Shown here piece after piece: positions 13,599 to 23,920 of a DNA stretch of 64,000 nt; within the stretch, counting starts at the first letter, position 1, and each line of letters begins with the position of its first letter. The stretch is from Kribbella albertanoniae (lineage in GTDB: Bacteria > Actinomycetota > Actinomycetes > Propionibacteriales > Kribbellaceae): positions 1 to 64,000 of the forward strand of contig NZ_SMKA01000006.1 in NCBI RefSeq assembly GCF_004348455.1, in the 5' to 3' direction. A model generated the notes under the pieces. It made no database searches. It worked only from the letters and a program-made list of their open reading frames with translations, and had not been told where the DNA came from. The position numbers and the translations under genes were made by a program.

Positions 13599-13769
13599 TT
13601 AGGGCATGGTCGGCAACCCGGCACCTACTGCGCTGCACTCGGCACGGCACCTCGACGCACTGGTGCAAAGCCCACGATGAACACCGCATCGAGGACTTCG
13701 CCCCAGCACGCCGAGCTACCGTACCGAGCACATGCTCGCTACGGCGCCGGGTCACCGACCATGCCCTAA
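13599..13769 (-). repeat. Structured dispersed repeat, copy 1
   Basis: A 171-bp element. Ends 13599-13613 and 13755-13769 are perfect 15-bp inverted repeats (TTAGGGCATGGTCGG / complement). Read as minus-strand RNA, the outer stem runs 27 bp without interruption, with three G-U pairs. The interior shares its sequence with copies at 19088 and 20271 and can form a second long hairpin whose loop contains CGATG/CATCG. It lies between the divergent HipA-like and GCS2 genes. Confidence 0.85.
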
Positions 13770-13798
13770 CCCGTTTCCCCAGGGGGTACCTGCAAGGG

Positions 13799-14851
13799 GT
13801 GAAGCATCCCGCCATCGGCGTCGAAGAAGAACTTCTGCTGGTCTCCGTCACCGGCGACCCGCTACCACGGAGCCAAGCCGTCGTCGATGACCTGCCCGGC
13901 CTCGATGTCACGCTCGAACTGACCCGGGCCCAGATCGAGATCAACAGCCCGGTCTGCAACTCTGCGGCCGAACTGCACGGGCATCTGACCAGCATGCGCT
14001 CCGAGCTCGCCGGTGCGGCGCACAGCGAGGGTGCCCGGCTGCTGGCGACCGGTACGCCGCAGCAGGGGATGGCGGCCCAGTTGGTCACCAAGAAACCGCG
14101 GTACCGGGAGATGGCCGAGCGGTACGGTCTGCTCGCCCGTGAGCAGAGCGTATGTGGCTGTCACGTGCACGTGGACGTGCCGGACAAAGAGGCTGCCATC
14201 CGGGTGTCCAACCACCTGCGGCCGTGGCTGCCCGCGCTGCTGGGGCTGACCGCGAACTCGTCGATCTACCTCGGGCAGGACACCGGGTTCGCGAGCTGGC
14301 GCTGGGTGATGTGGTCGCGCTGGCCGAGCGCCGGACCGCCGCCGTACCTGGAGTCTGCCGAGCACTACGAAGCGTTGGTGGCGATGCACCTGGCCGCCGG
14401 CACGATCATGGACGAGCAGATGATCTATTGGGACGCCCGCCCGTCGACGCATCTGCCGACGATCGAGATCCGGGTGAGCGACATCCCGTTGACCGTCGCT
14501 GAGAGCGTCCTGTTGGCCACGCTCGTCCGCGCGTTGGTAATGACGGCGCTGGAGGACGGTGGTCCCGGGCCCACGCTGGAGACGCAGATCCTGCGCGCGG
14601 CGTACTGGCTGGCCGCTCGGGACGGGCTGACGGCTGGTGGGCTTGAGGTGACGACTGGCGAGCTGCTGCCGGTTGCGGACGTGCTGGCGAAGCTAGTTCA
14701 GTACGTCGGTCCCGCGCTGCAGGAGCTTGGCGACCAGGACCTGGTTGCCGACGGGATCGCGCGAGCGCTTTCCGACGGGAACGGCGCGTTGCGGCAGCAG
14801 CGGATGTTCCGTGAGGGCGGTGATGTCATCGCCCTCACGGAAGTCACCTAG
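13799..14851 (+). CDS. Glutamate-cysteine ligase family 2 (YbdK-type carboxylate-amine ligase)
   Basis: A 350-aa GCS2-family enzyme. IGVEEELLLVS at the N-terminus is the conserved ATP/Mg2+ EEE motif, GCHVHVDVPD (near 120) the HVHV motif, and a later RVSDIP holds the substrate Arg. These enzymes join glutamate (or another carboxylate) to cysteine or an amine with ATP. In actinobacteria, EgtA and various YbdK homologues belong here; mycothiol producers do not need it for glutathione. The substrate is therefore uncertain. Start GTG 13799, 30 bp after the structured repeat. Its stop abuts the minus-strand stop of the GDPD gene. Confidence 0.8.
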   Translation: MKHPAIGVEEELLLVSVTGDPLPRSQAVVDDLPGLDVTLELTRAQIEINSPVCNSAAELHGHLTSMRSELAGAAHSEGARLLATGTPQQGMAAQLVTKKPRYREMAERYGLLAREQSVCGCHVHVDVPDKEAAIRVSNHLRPWLPALLGLTANSSIYLGQDTGFASWRWVMWSRWPSAGPPPYLESAEHYEALVAMHLAAGTIMDEQMIYWDARPSTHLPTIEIRVSDIPLTVAESVLLATLVRALVMTALEDGGPGPTLETQILRAAYWLAARDGLTAGGLEVTTGELLPVADVLAKLVQYVGPALQELGDQDLVADGIARALSDGNGALRQQRMFREGGDVIALTEVT

Positions 14852-16633
14852 CTAGCTTGTCCGAAGGAAGTCTTCGAGCCCGTGCAGGTCGTCGGTGTTG
14901 AGGTGGTCGACACCGGCGGCGGTCAGTTCGGCCCAGAGCGCTTCGCGGGCCGCACCGCGGGTGTCCGGAGTGGCCCAGAACCGGACGCGGTAGCCGGCGT
15001 GGTGGGCGGTCTGAACGATCTCCCGCAGCTTGGCCCGCTCGGCGGCCGGCATCGGGCCGACACCGACCCAGGTGAAGTTCTTCGTCCAGTTGTCGCTGAC
15101 CAACGGCATCAGTGAGGCTGGCATCCCCGAGCTGAGGTCGCTCAGGCGGCCGTCGTACCCGGCGTACCGGATCTTCTGTGCCTTCAGGACGTCGAGCGGA
15201 CGGTTGCCGCTGATCACCGAGGTCACCGCGCCCTTGAACACGTGGCCGTTGGCAAAGATCGTGCTGATCCCGCGGTACTTGCGCAGCGCCGCATCAATGG
15301 CTGCGTACGTCGACGGTCCGTCGCTCTTGATGTCGATCAGCAGCTGGAAGTCGCGACCGTGGCGATAGACCTGACCGTGGTTCGCCCGAACCCGATCGGC
15401 CAGCGGCTTCAGGTACAGGCTCTCCAGCGTGCGACCCGGCTTGACGTCCTCCAGGTCATGCGCGACCCGCAGCTCACCATCGACCAGCCAGACATCCGCC
15501 TCGACACTGTTGAACCCACGGTCCAACGCATCCTGCAACGGCCGCCGGTGCTCGTAGTCGTTGTGCGCATGCGCCGCGGGCAAAGCGCGGACGGCGGGAG
15601 CGTCGTACGTGCGCGGAAGCCGGAAGCCATTGTCCCGTACGACGGAACGCAGCCGATCGGGGTAGTCCGTGATGATCCCGTCGACGCCCTTGTCGATCAG
15701 CGACTGCATGGTCGCCGGGTCGTCGATCGTCCACGGGACCACCTTCATCCCGGCCTGGTGCGCCGACTTCACCATGTCCGCGGTCACGTACGGCCGGTAG
15801 GTCGGATCGGTGATCTTGCCGTTCTGCGGGAATCCGTGCACCGGCGAGATCGCCGACGCACCGAACGACTTGGTCGCCTTGACCAGGTCACCACCGAAGT
15901 CGTCGATGTCGATCCCGCCGAGCCACGGCGACTTGCCCGGCTGGCCGGTCTGCAGGAAGTCGTAGTTCGTCAGCGCGACCAGCGGCAGCTCGGGCGCGAC
16001 CTGGCGCATCCGCATCAGTGCGCCCCAGTCGAAGCTCTGGATCGTCACCTGGCGAGCGATCCGCGCTTTGCGAACTTCCTGCGCGACGACCTGGACGAAC
16101 TGCTCGCGCGGCGCGGTCTCGTTCGGCGCACCGGCCTCGACCTTGGTCTCGATGTTCAGCTTCACGTCGTTGGCGTGATAGCGGTGCACGAGCGCGAAAA
16201 CGTCGCGCAGCTCGGGCATCCGAGCACCGGGATCAGGCTGCTGGGCCGGGTGTTCCGGCTGCGTCAGCGAACCGCAGTCGAGCTGCTTGACCTGGTTCAG
16301 GTCGAGCGTGTTGACGTACTTGCCGACATACGGGAACTCCGGGTCGTTCGGCGTGTACGGCGCGGTGTCGCGGCACTTGTTCCCGCCGACCTTGCGGTCG
16401 TGGGTGATCACGGCGTACCCGTCCTGGGTGATCTGGACATCGAGCTCGAGGGTGCTGACACCGACCTCGAGACCGTGGGCGAACGACGCGATCGTGCTCT
16501 CGACGGTCAGGCCGAGGCCGCCGCGATGACCCTGGATGTCGAAGCTGCCGCGCTGGGCGCTCGCCGGCGCAGCCGGCAGCAGCAGCCCGCCGACCAGGGC
16601 AAGCGGGAGCAGCACACGGGGAAGGCGGTGCAT
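14852..16633 (-). CDS. Secreted two-domain glycerophosphodiester phosphodiesterase
   Basis: A 593-aa secreted protein. Signal peptide 1-26 ends ASA. Domain one (~30-345) is a GDPD: QGHRGG with H36, TLELDVQ, ITHDRKV, and a C-terminal DGIITDYPDRL. Domain two (~360-593) is a second PLC-like TIM barrel starting AHAHNDYEHRRPLQDALDRG with VEADVWLVDGELRVAHD, as in phosphatidylinositol-specific PLC-like proteins. It should hydrolyse glycerophosphodiesters or phospholipid headgroups outside the cell to recover glycerol 3-phosphate and phosphate. ATG 16633 has GGAAGGA upstream. PHO-like repeats lie at 16687-16715. Confidence 0.9.
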   Translation of the reverse strand: MHRLPRVLLPLALVGGLLLPAAPASAQRGSFDIQGHRGGLGLTVESTIASFAHGLEVGVSTLELDVQITQDGYAVITHDRKVGGNKCRDTAPYTPNDPEFPYVGKYVNTLDLNQVKQLDCGSLTQPEHPAQQPDPGARMPELRDVFALVHRYHANDVKLNIETKVEAGAPNETAPREQFVQVVAQEVRKARIARQVTIQSFDWGALMRMRQVAPELPLVALTNYDFLQTGQPGKSPWLGGIDIDDFGGDLVKATKSFGASAISPVHGFPQNGKITDPTYRPYVTADMVKSAHQAGMKVVPWTIDDPATMQSLIDKGVDGIITDYPDRLRSVVRDNGFRLPRTYDAPAVRALPAAHAHNDYEHRRPLQDALDRGFNSVEADVWLVDGELRVAHDLEDVKPGRTLESLYLKPLADRVRANHGQVYRHGRDFQLLIDIKSDGPSTYAAIDAALRKYRGISTIFANGHVFKGAVTSVISGNRPLDVLKAQKIRYAGYDGRLSDLSSGMPASLMPLVSDNWTKNFTWVGVGPMPAAERAKLREIVQTAHHAGYRVRFWATPDTRGAAREALWAELTAAGVDHLNTDDLHGLEDFLRTS

Positions 16634-16686
16634 GAGGGATTCCTTCCGGGGGATGGTGGGCGGACGCCCCGAGAGTCTCCTGGGAA

Positions 16687-16715
16687 GGTAACCGACAAAA
16701 GGCTTACAGGTAACC
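16687..16715 (-). promoter_or_regulatory. Possible PhoP (PHO-box-like) direct repeats
   Basis: On the minus strand, GGTTACCT occurs twice with a 22-nt period (plus-strand GGTAACC at 16687-16693 and 16709-16715). PHO boxes are direct repeats of 11-nt units resembling GTTCACC, so a 22-nt period fits, although each unit matches only about five of seven positions. The sites lie 54-82 bp upstream of the GDPD start, a gene class often controlled by phosphate. Confidence 0.35.
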
Positions 16716-16724
16716 GTCAAGCAT

Positions 16725-17037
16725 TCACGGAATCGACGTGATGTCCTCCTCGGGCCATGACACGCCCTCACAATCAGTCACGGATCAAACGCATTCTGGG
16801 ATCATCAGGGTCCGGTTCACTGATGAAGGAGAGCTCTGATGGTTCGTCGTCTACTCATCGCCGTGCTTGCGACTGGAGCCGCCGCTGTTGGCTTCGCCGC
16901 GATCGCAGGGGCCGCATCCGGCCAGGCGTCTGACTTGCAAACGAACGATTCGCTTGATCTCCAGGTGAGCGCCGTGGTCGGCGGCATTCCCTTCGAAATT
17001 CTTTAACTGCGCCGGTCACGGAATCGAGGTGATGTCC
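16725..17037. repeat. 22-bp near-identical direct repeats flanking the small peptide gene
   Basis: Positions 16725-16746 and 17016-17037 agree at 21 of 22 bases (one C/G difference). The right copy is the last codons and stop of the lipoprotein gene at 17016. The left copy keeps the same minus-strand reading DITSIP-stop but has no gene attached. The pair brackets the 55-aa peptide gene. Confidence 0.7.
16839..17006 (+). CDS. Small secreted peptide, 55 aa
   Basis: A 55-codon gene with a clear RBS (AAGGAGA, 7 nt upstream). The protein begins MVRRLLIAVLATGAAAVGFA, a classical Sec signal peptide with an Arg pair, ending around AGAASG-QA near residue 28-30. The predicted mature part is about 26 aa, acidic then hydrophobic (SDLQTNDSLDLQ, then a Val/Gly/Ile-rich end FEIL). 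No cysteines. I recognise no family; a cell-surface or signalling peptide is possible. It lies in the gap between two minus-strand secreted-protein genes and is flanked by 22-bp direct repeats. Confidence 0.65.
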   Translation: MVRRLLIAVLATGAAAVGFAAIAGAASGQASDLQTNDSLDLQVSAVVGGIPFEIL

Positions 17038-17792
17038 CGGGACGACTGGGCCTCGGCGACGACCGACCCGTCCTTGAAGGCCGGGGAGAGGGTGCCGTTC
17101 TCCCGGCGGAAGACCTTGATCGTGACCGTGCACGACGTGGTGGCGGTCTGACCGGCCGACGGCGACACAGGGCTCTGCTTGATCCGGCCGGCCGGGATGT
17201 GCCCGACGACGCTCCTGGGCGGCAGGCGGAGCTCGCCCTCCTGGATACACGAGCCGGTCCAGTTGACCGTCGTCGGCAGATAGCTCGGCCCCGAGATCCG
17301 GACGGTGATCGGCGACTGCCGCGACGCCCTCGTCCCCACGGCGGGTGCGATCAGCTGGAGCCGCTCGGGCAAGTTGACGTTCGACTGCGCAGACTCGTTG
17401 TCGCTGTCGCGGTGCAGGTCGAAGCTGACGTGGGTGACGGCTAGCAGTTCGTCTTCGAGGCGGCCGGAGTAGTTCGTCACGCCGAGGGACTTGTTGCGAC
17501 GCAACTTCGTCCGGATGAACGTCGGGTCCTGCTCGGTCATCGAGTTGGTTCCCGCGACGTTGATCGCCTCGTCGTTGCCGAGTTCGACGTAGGTCAGCGT
17601 GCCGGCGCGCAGCGTCGCGAGGACGTCGACGCGGGTCTCGTTGTCCTTGACCGTGACCCGGAAGTCGGCCTTGATTCCGCTCGTGCGGATGTCCTTGGAG
17701 TCGGCTGTCGAGCAGCCGGTCACGATCAGACCGGCGACGACCACGCCTGCGATGAGCCTCACCCGCCGGAAGCTAGCACCGCGGCGGCTCAC
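17016..17792 (-). CDS. Lipoprotein of unknown function
   Basis: A 258-aa predicted lipoprotein. From GTG 17792 the protein starts with a basic n-region (RRGASFRRVR), then LIAGVVVAGLIVTG-C27 as lipobox. The rest is beta-rich with no recognised domain; late residues TTSCTVTIKVFRRENGTLSPAF look like an Ig-like strand pair. The frame is open to 17855, but that extension overlaps the 73-bp repeat island, so a start at 17792 (or GTG 17762) is preferred. Its last 22 bp are duplicated at 16725-16746. Confidence 0.6.
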   Translation of the reverse strand: MSRRGASFRRVRLIAGVVVAGLIVTGCSTADSKDIRTSGIKADFRVTVKDNETRVDVLATLRAGTLTYVELGNDEAINVAGTNSMTEQDPTFIRTKLRRNKSLGVTNYSGRLEDELLAVTHVSFDLHRDSDNESAQSNVNLPERLQLIAPAVGTRASRQSPITVRISGPSYLPTTVNWTGSCIQEGELRLPPRSVVGHIPAGRIKQSPVSPSAGQTATTSCTVTIKVFRRENGTLSPAFKDGSVVAEAQSSRDITSIP

Positions 17793-17827
17793 TCGCCGGC
17801 CGGTGAGTAAGGGCTCCCACACGAGCC

Positions 17828-18045
17828 GGTACGACGTTGTGCACGGCTCAGCCATGTACGCGGCCTGCCGGTGGTCGAGCGGTGCTCAAGGTCCGCTCGC
17901 CGGGCGACCTTGAGCACGGTTCAACCATGTGAGCGCCCGGAAGGTGGTTGATCGGTGCTCAAGGTGACCCGGCCGGGCGACCTTGAGCACGGTTCGACCG
18001 TTTCGGTGGGGGGCAGATGGTTGGTGGAGTCTCAAGGTGACTCCC
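17828..18045. repeat. 73-bp tandem palindromic repeats, island 1
   Basis: The octamer CTCAAGGT recurs at 17885, 17958 and 18031, exactly 73 bp apart, with surrounding similarity and a partial unit further left. Units 1 and 2 contain the near-perfect palindrome GTGCTCAAGGT...ACCTTGAGCAC (17882-17917 and 17955-17990). The same family recurs at 23221-23372. Confidence 0.8.
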
Positions 18046-18185
18046 GGCCCGCGATCTCGGGTCCCCGGGGATGGTTGGCGCGTTACGCGGTAGAAAAACG
18101 GCGGATAGGCCCGAAAAATTACCGACTAACGCAAGACCTCGGGCATCACGCACCTCAGCCACAGCTACCGGAATTCTCAGTCGCC

Positions 18186-18245
18186 GTAACGTCCGACGAT
18201 CCGGAGACCAGGTGTGCGGGTTCTTCGGACGTTGTGGAAGCGGGA
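18186..18245. repeat. Degenerate copy of the 62-bp hairpin unit
   Basis: TAACGTCCGA...TTCGGACGTTG around a GC-rich centre, clearly related to the three units at 23588-23761 but more diverged. As at the second locus, it lies downstream of the 73-bp repeats. Confidence 0.6.
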
Positions 18246-18292
18246 GCGGGAAAGTTTGGGGTGCCGGACCGGGAAGCGCCTCACGGCGCGTG

Positions 18293-18314
18293 GCCGCTCG
18301 TAGCGGCTTTATTT
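18293..18314 (+). terminator. Intrinsic terminator with T-tract
   Basis: GCCGCT (18293-18298) pairs with AGCGGC (18302-18307), followed at once by TTTATTT. This is the most classical Rho-independent terminator in the window, yet no plus-strand gene lies upstream within a kilobase except the peptide at 16839. Confidence 0.65.
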
Positions 18315-18432
18315 GGGACCCGGGGCTTGCACCGGTCCGACACCTCCAACAGTGTAACCGGTGCCCAAATCCCTTGTCCTGTTGAGATCTCGGGGTGCCG
18401 GACCATATAACATCTTGTCCGGCTGCACGCAA

Positions 18433-19047
18433 CTACCAGAGTTGCCCGGCGCGTTCGGAGCGGGCCGCGGTCTGCAACTGGTCGGCCATCTCGACCAGTT
18501 TCGAGGCTGACAGCACTTCGTCGTGACCGTCGTCGGCCAGATGTGCACGGCCGGTCGCGATGATCCGCGCGAACGCGGCCGCCCGATCCAGCGTGGTGGC
18601 GAAGTCACCGGTCGCCACACCCCGCAGTACGGCGTCAACCATGTCCCGCACCTCGGCCGGTCCTGGCGGCTCCGCAACTCCGGCGACGACCGCGTGCACC
18701 TCTGCATACTTGCGGCCGGTGCTGAACTCGCGGGACACCTGATCCGCATTCGAGTGCACCCAGGAACGCAACAGATACAGCCGCCACAGTGCACCGGGCA
18801 ACGAATCCGCCGGCGCGTCGGACCACAGCTCCGCGAGCTCGTCGAGACCGTAGTCGTCGGCCAGCTTCACGACCCGCGCATGCACCTCGGCGTCCTCCGA
18901 CGACCGCACCCCGCGGACCAGCAGCTCGGCGGTCCGGTGCGCGACTTCAGTCACGGCCGCCGGGTCGGCAGCACCCGGCAACGACTCGAACAGCTTGTTG
19001 CCCGGCATGATCGGGCGGCGCGGATTCGTGGAGCTCACGGCCTCCAT
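18433..19047 (-). CDS. Conserved hypothetical protein, 204 aa
   Basis: A soluble helical protein (EVAHRTAELLVRGVRSSEDAEV..., LVEMADQLQTAARSERAGQLW at the end) with no catalytic motif I can name. The ATG at 19047 is chosen because the open frame further upstream runs into the structured repeat copy 2. A second in-frame start is GTG 19038. The repeat ends about 40 bp upstream of this start, so it may sit in the 5' leader of the transcript. Confidence 0.6.
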   Translation of the reverse strand: MEAVSSTNPRRPIMPGNKLFESLPGAADPAAVTEVAHRTAELLVRGVRSSEDAEVHARVVKLADDYGLDELAELWSDAPADSLPGALWRLYLLRSWVHSNADQVSREFSTGRKYAEVHAVVAGVAEPPGPAEVRDMVDAVLRGVATGDFATTLDRAAAFARIIATGRAHLADDGHDEVLSASKLVEMADQLQTAARSERAGQLW

Positions 19048-19087
19048 GGTGCCTGACGCGCGAAGCCCTCGCATCTCAAGCAGGCAG

Positions 19088-19252
19088 AGGCCATGTCTGG
19101 CGATCCCACGCCTACTGCGCTGCACTCGGCACGGCACCTCGCCGCACTGGAGGAAAGGCCACGATGAACCACATCGAGGCCTCCCCTCCAGCACGCCGAG
19201 CTACCGCACCGAGCACATGCTCGCTACGGCGCGGAATCACCAGACATGACCT
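19088..19252 (-). repeat. Structured dispersed repeat, copy 2
   Basis: A 165-bp element. Ends 19088-19100 and 19240-19252 are inverted repeats of different sequence from copy 1. As minus-strand RNA the outer stem is 25 bp with four G-U pairs and no mismatch; as plus-strand RNA those four are A-C mismatches. The inner hairpin has a 14-bp stem (CTGGAGGGGAGGCC with GGCCTTTCCTCCAG, two G-U) and an apical CGATG/CATCG stem. It begins immediately at the stop codon of the PPOX gene. Confidence 0.85.
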
Positions 19253-19691
19253 AGTCCGACAGATCACTGCTGAACCACCGCTTCGGCTGCACTCTGTAGA
19301 GGACGGGTGCGGACTCGGGATGCGCGAACTCGTTCTGCACGAAACCCTGCGCATACTCGGCCGGCATGTAGCGCTGGGCGATCTTCTCCATCTCCTCCGG
19401 GGTGGCCGGGCCCGACTTCACGACGGCGCCCTCGATGGTGACGTACTTGTAGGGCATCTCCTCGGTCTGCACGGTCACGGTCAGCGCCTCGGCGGAGGTG
19501 AGCAGCTCGGCCTTGCGGGTCTTGCGGCCGAGGGTGTTGGTGAAGAACGTCAGCTCACCGCCGGGCTCGTAGTGGTAGAAGACCGGCGACGCCAGCGGCG
19601 GCCGCCCGTCCGGCTGGGCGATCGACAGGATCGCGACATGGGACGCGGCCAGGAAGGCCTCGCGGCCGGCGCTGCTCATCGGTCCAGGCAT
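19251..19691 (-). CDS. PPOX/pyridoxamine 5'-phosphate oxidase-like flavin/F420 protein
   Basis: A 146-aa split-beta-barrel protein (REAFLAASHVAILSIAQPDGRPPLASPVFYHYEPGGELTFFTN...). This fold binds FMN, F420 or heme; typical actinobacterial members are F420H2-dependent reductases or simple binding proteins. The ATG at 19691 has GGAG 8 nt upstream. It is divergent from the marR gene, with a palindromic site between them, so MarR probably controls it. Confidence 0.8.
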   Translation of the reverse strand: MPGPMSSAGREAFLAASHVAILSIAQPDGRPPLASPVFYHYEPGGELTFFTNTLGRKTRKAELLTSAEALTVTVQTEEMPYKYVTIEGAVVKSGPATPEEMEKIAQRYMPAEYAQGFVQNEFAHPESAPVLYRVQPKRWFSSDLSD

Positions 19692-19724
19692 TCGACTACT
19701 CCTCACGGGTGGCATACACTTTGC

Positions 19725-19753
19725 TTGACCAAGAGTTTGACTCTCAAAGTCTA
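19725..19753 (+). promoter_or_regulatory. MarR operator candidate in the divergent promoter region
   Basis: TTTGA-CTC-TCAAA at 19736-19748 is a perfect inverted repeat with a 3-bp centre, within a wider ACTTTG...CAAAGT inverted pair (19718-19749). TTGACC at 19725-19730 is a good -35. The site lies between the divergent PPOX and marR starts. Confidence 0.55.
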
Positions 19754-19773
19754 TGACTGTCAAGGAGGGAATC

Positions 19774-20268
19774 GTGGCGGATTCCGTGGAGATCGAGCTC
19801 GACCACCATCTGGCCGGGCACGACGAGGCCGATCGGGTGATCGAGGCTGCCCTCTACCGGATCGTGGAGCTCGCCCGCCGGCACCGGGAGTGGCAGCGCG
19901 CGGTCGCCGCGGAGTCCGGCCTGACGCTGGCCGACTGCGAGGTGATCCTTCGGCTGGCCCACCTGGAGCCTGTCGAGAGCACGCCGAGCCAGCTGGCGCG
20001 GATCTTCCACATCACCGCGGGCAGCATGACCGCCCGCCTCGGCCGCTTGGAGTCCGGCGGCTACCTGACCCGGACCGTCCAGCCGGAGAATCGCGCGCAG
20101 ATCCAGGTCGAGCTGACCGGGAAGGGGAAGGTGCTGCACCACCGGTTCGCCGACCAGATGGTCGAGATCCACCACCAGATGATCGCGGGCGCCCTGCCCG
20201 CCAAGGACCGCGAGACACTCAACGACCTGCTCAGACGCGTGCTGACCCACGTGGAAGCCACCACCTGA
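19774..20268 (+). CDS. MarR-family transcriptional regulator
   Basis: A 164-aa winged-helix regulator: helices EAALYRIVELARRHREWQ, recognition region TPSQLARIFHITAGSMTARLGRLESGGYLTR, wing PENRAQIQVELTGKGK, and C-terminal dimerisation helix. GTG 19774 has AAGGAGG with 6-nt spacing and is preferred over the ATG at 19753. It is divergent from the PPOX gene and probably represses it, and itself, through the palindrome at 19736. Ligand unknown; phenolic or oxidant signals are usual for the family. Confidence 0.9.
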   Translation: MADSVEIELDHHLAGHDEADRVIEAALYRIVELARRHREWQRAVAAESGLTLADCEVILRLAHLEPVESTPSQLARIFHITAGSMTARLGRLESGGYLTRTVQPENRAQIQVELTGKGKVLHHRFADQMVEIHHQMIAGALPAKDRETLNDLLRRVLTHVEATT

Positions 20269-20270
20269 TG

Positions 20271-20435
20271 AGGGCGGGTCTCTTAAGCCCACGCCTACTG
20301 CGCTGCACTCGGCACGGCACCTCGCCGCACTGGAGGAAAGGCCACGATGAACCACATCGAGGCCTCCCCTCCAGCGCACCGATGCACCGCACCGAGCACA
20401 TGCTCGCTACGGCGCGGACTTAAGAGACCCGCCCT
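20271..20435 (-). repeat. Structured dispersed repeat, copy 3
   Basis: A 165-bp element whose ends (20271-20287 and 20419-20435) are perfect 17-bp inverted repeats, different again from copies 1 and 2. The minus-strand outer stem is 25 bp with two G-U pairs. The interior is nearly identical to copy 2 apart from a ~13-bp block near 20379-20391, where a stem is kept by a G-U pair. It lies between the marR stop and the gene at 20450. Confidence 0.85.
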
Positions 20436-23035: not shown

Positions 23036-23220
23036 CCCAGCCGTAGGCCGCCCGCCCCGGCTGGGCGTACTGCGGTCATCAACTGGGGACCGCGGACATC
23101 TGATCAGTTGTCCGAGGCCCCATTAGGTGTACGCGGTTGGGCCGGATACGGAGCCCGTCAGCCGCAGGCAACGTTCGCCTCGGTCACCGGCCGCATCATC
23201 CACCTCAGGGCTTTCCACAC

Positions 23221-23372
23221 GGTCCAGTACGACGTTGAGCACGGGTCAACCAGGTGCGCGCCCTTGAAGGTGGTTGAGGGGGTGCTCAAGGTGAGCCGGC
23301 CGTGCGACGTTGACCACGGTTCGACCGTCCCGGCGGGTGCCAGACGGTTGGTGGGTGCCTAAGGTGACCGCG
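23221..23372. repeat. 73-bp palindromic repeats, island 2
   Basis: CTCAAGGT at 23285 and its variant CCTAAGGT at 23358 are 73 bp apart and the flanking sequence matches island 1 (17828-18045), including GGTTCGACCGT and the following GGCAGATGGTTGGTG-like segment. The palindrome arms are more diverged here. Confidence 0.75.
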
Positions 23373-23458
23373 GTTGCCGGCCTCGCCATCCGGTCCGGCC
23401 AGCTGCGTGGTGCGCCCTCTGAAGGTTGGGGTGGATGTTCGCCGCGCTTTCCTCCAAC

Positions 23459-23554
23459 AAACCGGTTTGGGGAGGGCTGGCATCGTCCGGGAAGCGATGC
23501 GGGGAGGATCCACCCCCCGAATCCGTCGTGGATCCTCCCCGAACCGGTTTGGGG
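23459..23554. repeat. Hairpin bracketed by direct repeats
   Basis: GGGGAGGATCCA (23501-23512) and TGGATCCTCCCC (23529-23540) form a perfect 12-bp stem around a 16-nt loop. The same AACCGGTTTGGGG sequence stands on both outer sides (23459-23472 and 23541-23554). Confidence 0.75.
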
Positions 23555-23587
23555 AAGGAGATTCGGCGTCCCGTTCGCTGCCGGTTC

Positions 23588-23761
23588 GCTAACGTCCGAA
23601 CGACCGGAGGCGGGCCCTCCGTTCCTTCGGACGTTAGCTGGGAGCGGTGGCTAACGTCCGAACGTCCGGAGGCGGGCCCTCCGTTGCTTCGGACGTTAGC
23701 TGGGAGCGGTGGCTAACGTCCGAACGTCCGGAGGCGGGCCCTCCGGTCTTTCGGACGTTGT
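23588..23761. repeat. Three tandem 62-bp hairpin units
   Basis: Units start at 23588, 23650 and 23712. Each has outer arms CTAACGTCCGAA / TTCGGACGTTAG and an inner GGAGG-CGGGC-CCTCC stem, and units are joined by CTGGGAGCGGTGG. The third unit ends in GACGTTG instead of GACGTTAG, as does the degenerate copy at 18186. Confidence 0.85.
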
Positions 23762-23814
23762 GGTGGGGACCGGGATGCCGTGGTCGGGCGGGGGCGCCAC
23801 GCCGCCCCGGCCAT

Positions 23815-23920
23815 AACTGGTGGCATGAGACACCTTCTGACGTCCGGAGACCTGTGGTGCGTGGTCTCCGGCCCCAACTGCCTGTCTCCGGCCACAAGTG
23901 GTGGCGTGGGACAGGAAGAG
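23815..23920. repeat. Short related repeats with a 9-bp inverted pair
   Basis: CCGGCCATAACTGGTGGCAT and CCGGCCACAAGTGGTGGCGT are degenerate direct copies. Between them CCGGAGACC (23844-23852) and GGTCTCCGG (23863-23871) are a perfect inverted repeat. It lies just past the end of the ssuD-like gene and could terminate it. Confidence 0.55.

Follow-up and report, generated by a model that had tools for sequence, protein, structure and literature searches.

The window analysed here is a stretch of 64,000 nucleotides from Kribbella albertanoniae (contig NZ_SMKA01000006.1, positions 1 to 64,000), and it contains three copies of a non-coding element of about 165 nucleotides (nt). The minus strand of each copy, which we call the sense strand, folds as one long hairpin (Table 1). 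The first-pass annotation of this DNA had described three copies whose outer arms are fully paired as minus-strand RNA, with the minus strand the better-paired form, and this description holds: all three copies are there, and the outer arms of each form 25-26 consecutive pairs with zero mismatches. The minimum free energies of the minus-strand RNA are -139.5, -136.9 and -138.6 kcal/mol for copies 1, 2 and 3, compared with -96.6, -90.1 and -103.2 kcal/mol for the plus strand. Folded as single-stranded DNA, copy 3 gives -73.2 kcal/mol (minus) versus -59.4 kcal/mol (plus), with z scores against shuffles of -13.4 and -9.3. The minus-strand gene at 19251-19679 has its TAG stop codon completed by the first bases of copy 2.

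Table 1. Hairpin copies of the window and their parts (window positions, except in the last row)
Feature	Position	Strand	Basis or remark
Copy 1, complete hairpin	13601-13767	- (sense = minus)	Covariance model and folding; 13599-13769 with the TT/AA flanks
Copy 1, 5' arm	13742-13767	-	Mismatch-free pairing with 13601-13626
Copy 1, 3' arm	13601-13626	-	Partner of 13742-13767
Copy 2, complete hairpin	19088-19252	-	Empty site known in genome G021
Copy 2, 5' arm	19228-19252	-	Arm pairing, folding
Copy 2, 3' arm	19088-19112	-	Arm pairing, folding
Copy 3, complete hairpin	20271-20435	-	Antisense to the plus-strand genes on either side
Copy 3, 5' arm	20411-20435	-	Arm pairing, folding
Copy 3, 3' arm	20271-20295	-	Arm pairing, folding
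Copy 3, conserved core	20296-20410	-	Tandem U-G/G-U pairs and internal loop GTAGCGAGC..GCGCAGTAGGC
Core tandem wobble pairs (alignment columns)	40/41:133/134, 47/48:126/127, 52/53:121/122, 62/63:111/112	-	Copy alignment

The three copies belong to a large family. A DNA search of the 9.7-Mb draft genome of the same strain found 20 close copies (type A), and a covariance model made from 45 copies recovered the same 20 at 163-181 bits together with about 20 more elements at 51-110 bits. These lower-scoring elements are of types B, C and D, which differ in core and arms and share with type A the long stem and the strand preference, at a length of 158-169 nt. When 75 scored candidates per genome were considered on both strands, 38 of 38 Kribbella genomes had matches, from 2-3 (G008, G024) up to 69 per genome. 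Weaker matches occur in 22 of 257 genomes from other genera of the Propionibacteriales, and most of the divergent relatives that we read have the inner loop GTAGCGAGC..GCGCAGTAGGC, the arm motif GTGTCT..AGACAC, or both, in 161-166 nt. Plasmid, phage and viral collections gave zero matches to the element. Three 22-base matches to the core, in Kineococcus, Kitasatospora and Sphaerisporangium, were regarded as chance because the covariance model picked up none of them. We found no published description of the family in the literature searched, which left most subscription journals outside it.

Shorter versions with sizes near 103 and 86 nt recur in several species, with complete arms but lacking the apical part of the stem (L250, L279, L281, L215, L265, L255, L278, L251 and L198 are examples, along with many matches of 102-107 and 83-86 nt). 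Two solo arms in the strain's own genome (L058 on C272 and L059 on C344) consist of a single type-A arm without the remainder and are probably deletion remnants. Among type-A copies with the same arms (e.g., L013, L025, L017 and L021), the AGCTC/GCATC bulge, the apical stem and the loop occur as reshuffled modules, as if apical parts had been swapped between elements.

The arms and core vary in a way that keeps one strand paired. Across the 45 type-A copies, 99.3% of 3103 pair cells hold a standard pair, and 30 of 69 pairs have changed on both sides (275 cells), compared with 15.7 pairs and 69 cells in the shuffle control; in the outer arm, both sides vary in 22 of 24 pairs. None of 500 shuffled alignments approaches the observed covariation, and structures slid along the alignment pair in only 35-52% of cells. 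Since the copies are related and not fully independent, the shuffles overstate independence, a limit that does not apply in the same manner to the slid controls and the nature of the non-Watson-Crick cells, of which 517 are G-U and 4 are A-C. Several wobble pairs of the core are nearly invariant and are arranged as tandem 5'-UG-3'/3'-GU-5' steps. Quasipalindrome correction alone would leave G-U and A-C cells equally, and was rejected on the ratio of 517 to 4. From the degree of pairing, the changes on both sides and this asymmetry, we conclude that the fold of one strand is under selection, be it RNA or single-stranded DNA, both of which fit the asymmetry. The suggestion in the first-pass annotation that the stem diverges under selection for minus-strand pairing is thus borne out.

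Copies at sites shared between two or three species allow the same question to be asked in place. In clear orthologues (L065/L282, L293/L295 and L258/L261/L269), the arms differ mainly by compensated or G-U changes, and the same is true of the probable orthologues L082/L237. Some other shared-site pairs (L074/L245, L076/L233 and L200/L239) have cores as divergent as those of unrelated copies, so they were not used as proof of compensation in situ; they may be independent insertions. In three further cases (L099/L212, L207/L242 and L221/L243/L281), apparently independent insertions lie at the same intergenic site, or a few bases away, in different species.

The element is mobile. The closest genome found, G021, has the two flanks of copy 2 directly adjoining, with neither arm nor hairpin between them, and none of the strain's 20 type-A copies was found at a site shared with that genome. 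The relatives examined lack copy 1 at the orthologous position, and some of them retain arm-like scraps there. Elsewhere, element L219 is missing in the strain's own genome and L202 is missing in more than 15 species. These empty sites and the many copies support the earlier view of a mobile, structured element like a miniature inverted-repeat transposable element (MITE). The accompanying idea, that it inserts into existing hairpins such as terminators, fails at the copy 2 site, which shows no bare arm hairpin before insertion. Arms and core insert together, and since the arm motif is common to copies elsewhere, the arms travel with the element. In Kribbella rubisoli (L229), a bare short arm-like hairpin, AGGGTGTGTCTCGGGAGACACACCCT, is found where K. 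sandramycini (L214) has the full element; the simpler reading of it is a deletion product, because core-deleted size classes are common.

The boundary of the element coincides with the end of pairing. Positions inside the element are paired in 80-95% of copies and the outermost pair, an A-T pair, in 80%, and one base further out the value falls sharply to 42%, which is background. The flanking base is T on the left in 58% and A on the right in 44% of copies. Apart from a weak TA signal, no flank repeats of 1-12 bases were detected. Copy 1 had at first led us to prefer a TA target-site duplication, but flank statistics turned against it: in 67 copies with perfect arms, T is present in 66%, A in 58% and both in 37%, as expected if the two were independent. 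Insertion between T and A and duplication of TA would look alike in a comparison of filled with empty sites; it is these statistics that favour the former. Many copies directly abut the gene upstream and supply the end of its stop codon, presumably because T-A sites in GC-rich DNA are often part of TAG or TAA.

The orientation of the element follows the chromosome arm on which it lies. At 136 of 138 places in 12 complete genomes, the element is on the minus strand when it lies in the right arm and on the plus strand when it lies in the left (p = 5.5e-38). The sample comprises 11 complete Kribbella genomes in which dnaA was located and G034, from another genus, with dnaA at its start; dnaA served as the origin marker, and the genome sizes used to split the replichores were rounded. 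Positions were taken from match lists ranked by score, not by orientation, and seven of the Kribbella genomes contribute only their best-scoring copies. Single genomes show the same polarity (G012, 31/31; G015, 23/23; G013, 18/18; G002, 18/19; G034, 8/8), as do the short versions in complete genomes and four copies of equal score in G015. The GC skew of the flanks is +0.020 and -0.023 on the two arms, of the expected sign on both, which confirms the assignment of the arms. Of the two exceptions, L082 is apparently matched by an orthologue in a second species, L237. The polarity points to the replication fork, and it follows that the sense strand, in which the G-U pairs form, is the leading-strand template and has the same sequence as the nascent lagging strand.

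Genes do not account for this orientation. The first-pass annotation had noted that the copies keep the same orientation whatever the flanking genes, and this holds for the family, with replication as the reference. In 148 copies, the gene context is antisense for 57, sense for 22, divergent for 45 and convergent for 24. Gene orientation was rejected as the cause because only 57 of the 79 codirectional cases are antisense, and this weaker bias is what a tendency of genes to run with the fork would produce. Compositional strand bias was likewise rejected, since the G/T-rich sense strand is opposite to the G-rich leading strand. Elements in G002, G012, G013 and G015 are denser near the origin (Kolmogorov-Smirnov p = 5e-6), and among the listed places there are none at 5.65-8.30 Mb in G012 or at 4.38-7.65 Mb in G013.

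Searches for a partner enzyme or a known family gave negative results. The Y1_Tnp domain of IS200/REP-type transposases (PF01797) was found in 0 of 16 Kribbella genomes, with positive controls, and the mobilising enzyme is not a Y1 transposase. No GT[AG]G guide is present at the foot of the hairpin, where the flanks prefer CT/T and show no GTAG. An autonomous insertion sequence (IS) with the arm motif was sought in the strain's own draft genome with the pattern AGGGYRTGTCT, which matched only elements, solo arms and one coding sequence; this search covered 593 contigs, so that gaps, and any IS with other ends, would escape it. Rfam gave only chance matches, far below the gathering scores, and no group II intron match.

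In our view, a folded single strand arising at the replication fork is probably either the form in which the repeats move or the reason why they survive. The reading that we prefer, and to which we give about an even chance, is of a non-autonomous family of mobile hairpins of about 165 nt that are strand-specific and enter the DNA in one polarity with respect to the fork. The mobile form would be the folded sense single strand, with DNA likelier than RNA, and its fully paired stem would set both ends side by side at the foot. Joining could then take place at a nick or gap in the nascent lagging strand, preferentially between T and A, and the joined hairpin would be copied in the next round of replication. 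Because such end joining would need pairing to the last base, the sequence of the arms would be free while their pairing would be obligatory, and the joining would leave no duplication and would fix the orientation. A categorically new mechanism is possible. We put forward tentatively, as possible but doubtful, that the family represents a new class of mobile DNA, a free-arm hairpin joined without duplication into the nascent lagging strand at Okazaki junctions and thereby fixed in orientation chromosome-wide.

Several points weigh against insertion at the fork with fixed polarity. IS608 and ISDra2 (PMC6006769) and the group II intron RmInt1 (PMC8914252) do insert as single strands at forks, but on the lagging-strand template, the strand opposite to the one that folds best here. 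The literature searched offered no precedent for the nick-joining step, no partner gene was identified, and in G209 (probably Nocardioides) the polarity of the relatives looks mixed. The polarity could also arise by retention instead of insertion, and this is the strongest rival, although an unlikely one by our estimate. Elements would then insert both ways, and those with the better-folding strand on the lagging-strand template would be excised, deleted or harmful. Integron attC sites provide a direct precedent: in native chromosomal integrons the leading-strand template carries the attC strand that folds and recombines, because the other way round they are unstable, and inversion raises excision (PMC11023631). 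The Kribbella hairpins likewise have their better-folding strand on the leading-strand template, and core-deleted versions (about 103 and 86 nt) are frequent among them. Against retention, the fold is strong for either strand even in DNA form (-73 vs -59 kcal/mol), which makes a near-absolute filter surprising; near-identical recent copies obey the polarity already; and the exceptional copy L082, with its apparent orthologue L237, was not quickly lost.

The tolerance of G-U and the nearly invariant tandem U-G/G-U pairs fit RNA best, and entry of RNA into DNA at a fork is known from group II introns (PMC8914252), so a transcribed sense hairpin might be reverse-transcribed into DNA there, with selection on RNA folding. 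Sense RNA entering the lagging-strand template would be expected to give the opposite polarity, however, the element has no Rfam match, and a gene that points into the sense strand precedes only 46 of 148 copies, which leaves no consistent upstream gene; we therefore hold a mobile RNA to be improbable. Still less probable is a palindromic MITE moved by a DDE transposase at TA sites, with pairing and polarity as by-products. In size, long stem, intergenic location and TA-flanked ends, the element does resemble ERIC, NEMIS and RUP (PMC2229807), and the T/A flank preference agrees with this. But even in perfect copies T and A are independent and not conserved as a duplication would be, arms that diverge fully while remaining paired would go unrecognised by a sequence-specific transposase, no IS with the arm motif was found in the strain's own draft genome, and DDE insertion does not predict fork polarity. 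A domesticated structured RNA or terminator with a host function at gene ends would suit the many copies that exactly abut stop codons and the apparent orthologues that differ mainly by compensated or G-U changes. It is very hard to reconcile with an orientation indifferent to genes, with site turnover between close species and with genomes that have only 2-3 copies, and we consider it the least probable of these by far.

Among known systems, ERIC, Correia/NEMIS and RUP are of the nearest kind. Like them, the Kribbella hairpin is a short (<200 bp), non-coding, dispersed and intergenic mobile palindrome with a long stem-loop, many copies and size variants, and often with TA at its ends; most of the listed families of palindromic MITEs have TA ends and target duplications (PMC2229807). 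Unlike them, it has covarying copy-specific arms, near-absolute strand asymmetry, an orientation that follows replication and no detectable target-site duplication. RUP has terminal repeats in common with IS630-Spn1; the arm-motif search of the strain's own draft genome found no such IS for the Kribbella hairpin. The REP/REPIN elements with TnpA-REP (RAYT) and the IS200/IS605 family have hairpins recognised as single strands, as proposed here, and IS608 and ISDra2 are replication-coupled, but REP and IS200 hairpins measure 21-65 nt as against one hairpin of 165 nt, the Y1_Tnp domain is absent from the 16 Kribbella genomes, and at the fork the strand that folds better here is the opposite one. 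Integron attC sites share a variable sequence with a conserved hairpin structure, and their placement on the leading-strand template matches the 136 of 138 places as an analogy only. The Kribbella hairpins are dispersed single elements of a different length, and no cassettes were seen with them. RmInt1 is likewise a structured mobile element with strand-biased insertion at forks, but it has the opposite strand preference, and Rfam gave no match of the Kribbella hairpin to a group II intron, hence no sign of an intron ribozyme with domain V. The Kribbella hairpins therefore resemble palindromic MITEs in genome ecology, and we do not file them in any named family.

The way in which palindromic bacterial MITEs move is still to be settled, and mobilisation by a transposase had no experimental support yet according to a 2007 review (PMC2229807). 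Two signals in this family are not predicted by standard transposition, namely stems of free sequence that are always paired on one strand and a near-absolute orientation relative to replication, and the two in combination open a replication-fork mechanism to direct testing. The family also offers a natural system for the survival of long palindromes on a chromosome.

Other repeats in the window are unrelated to the hairpin. Translations of the open reading frames suggest a tandem repeat at 23400-23900 and another dispersed repeat at 17890-18050 and 23220-23360.

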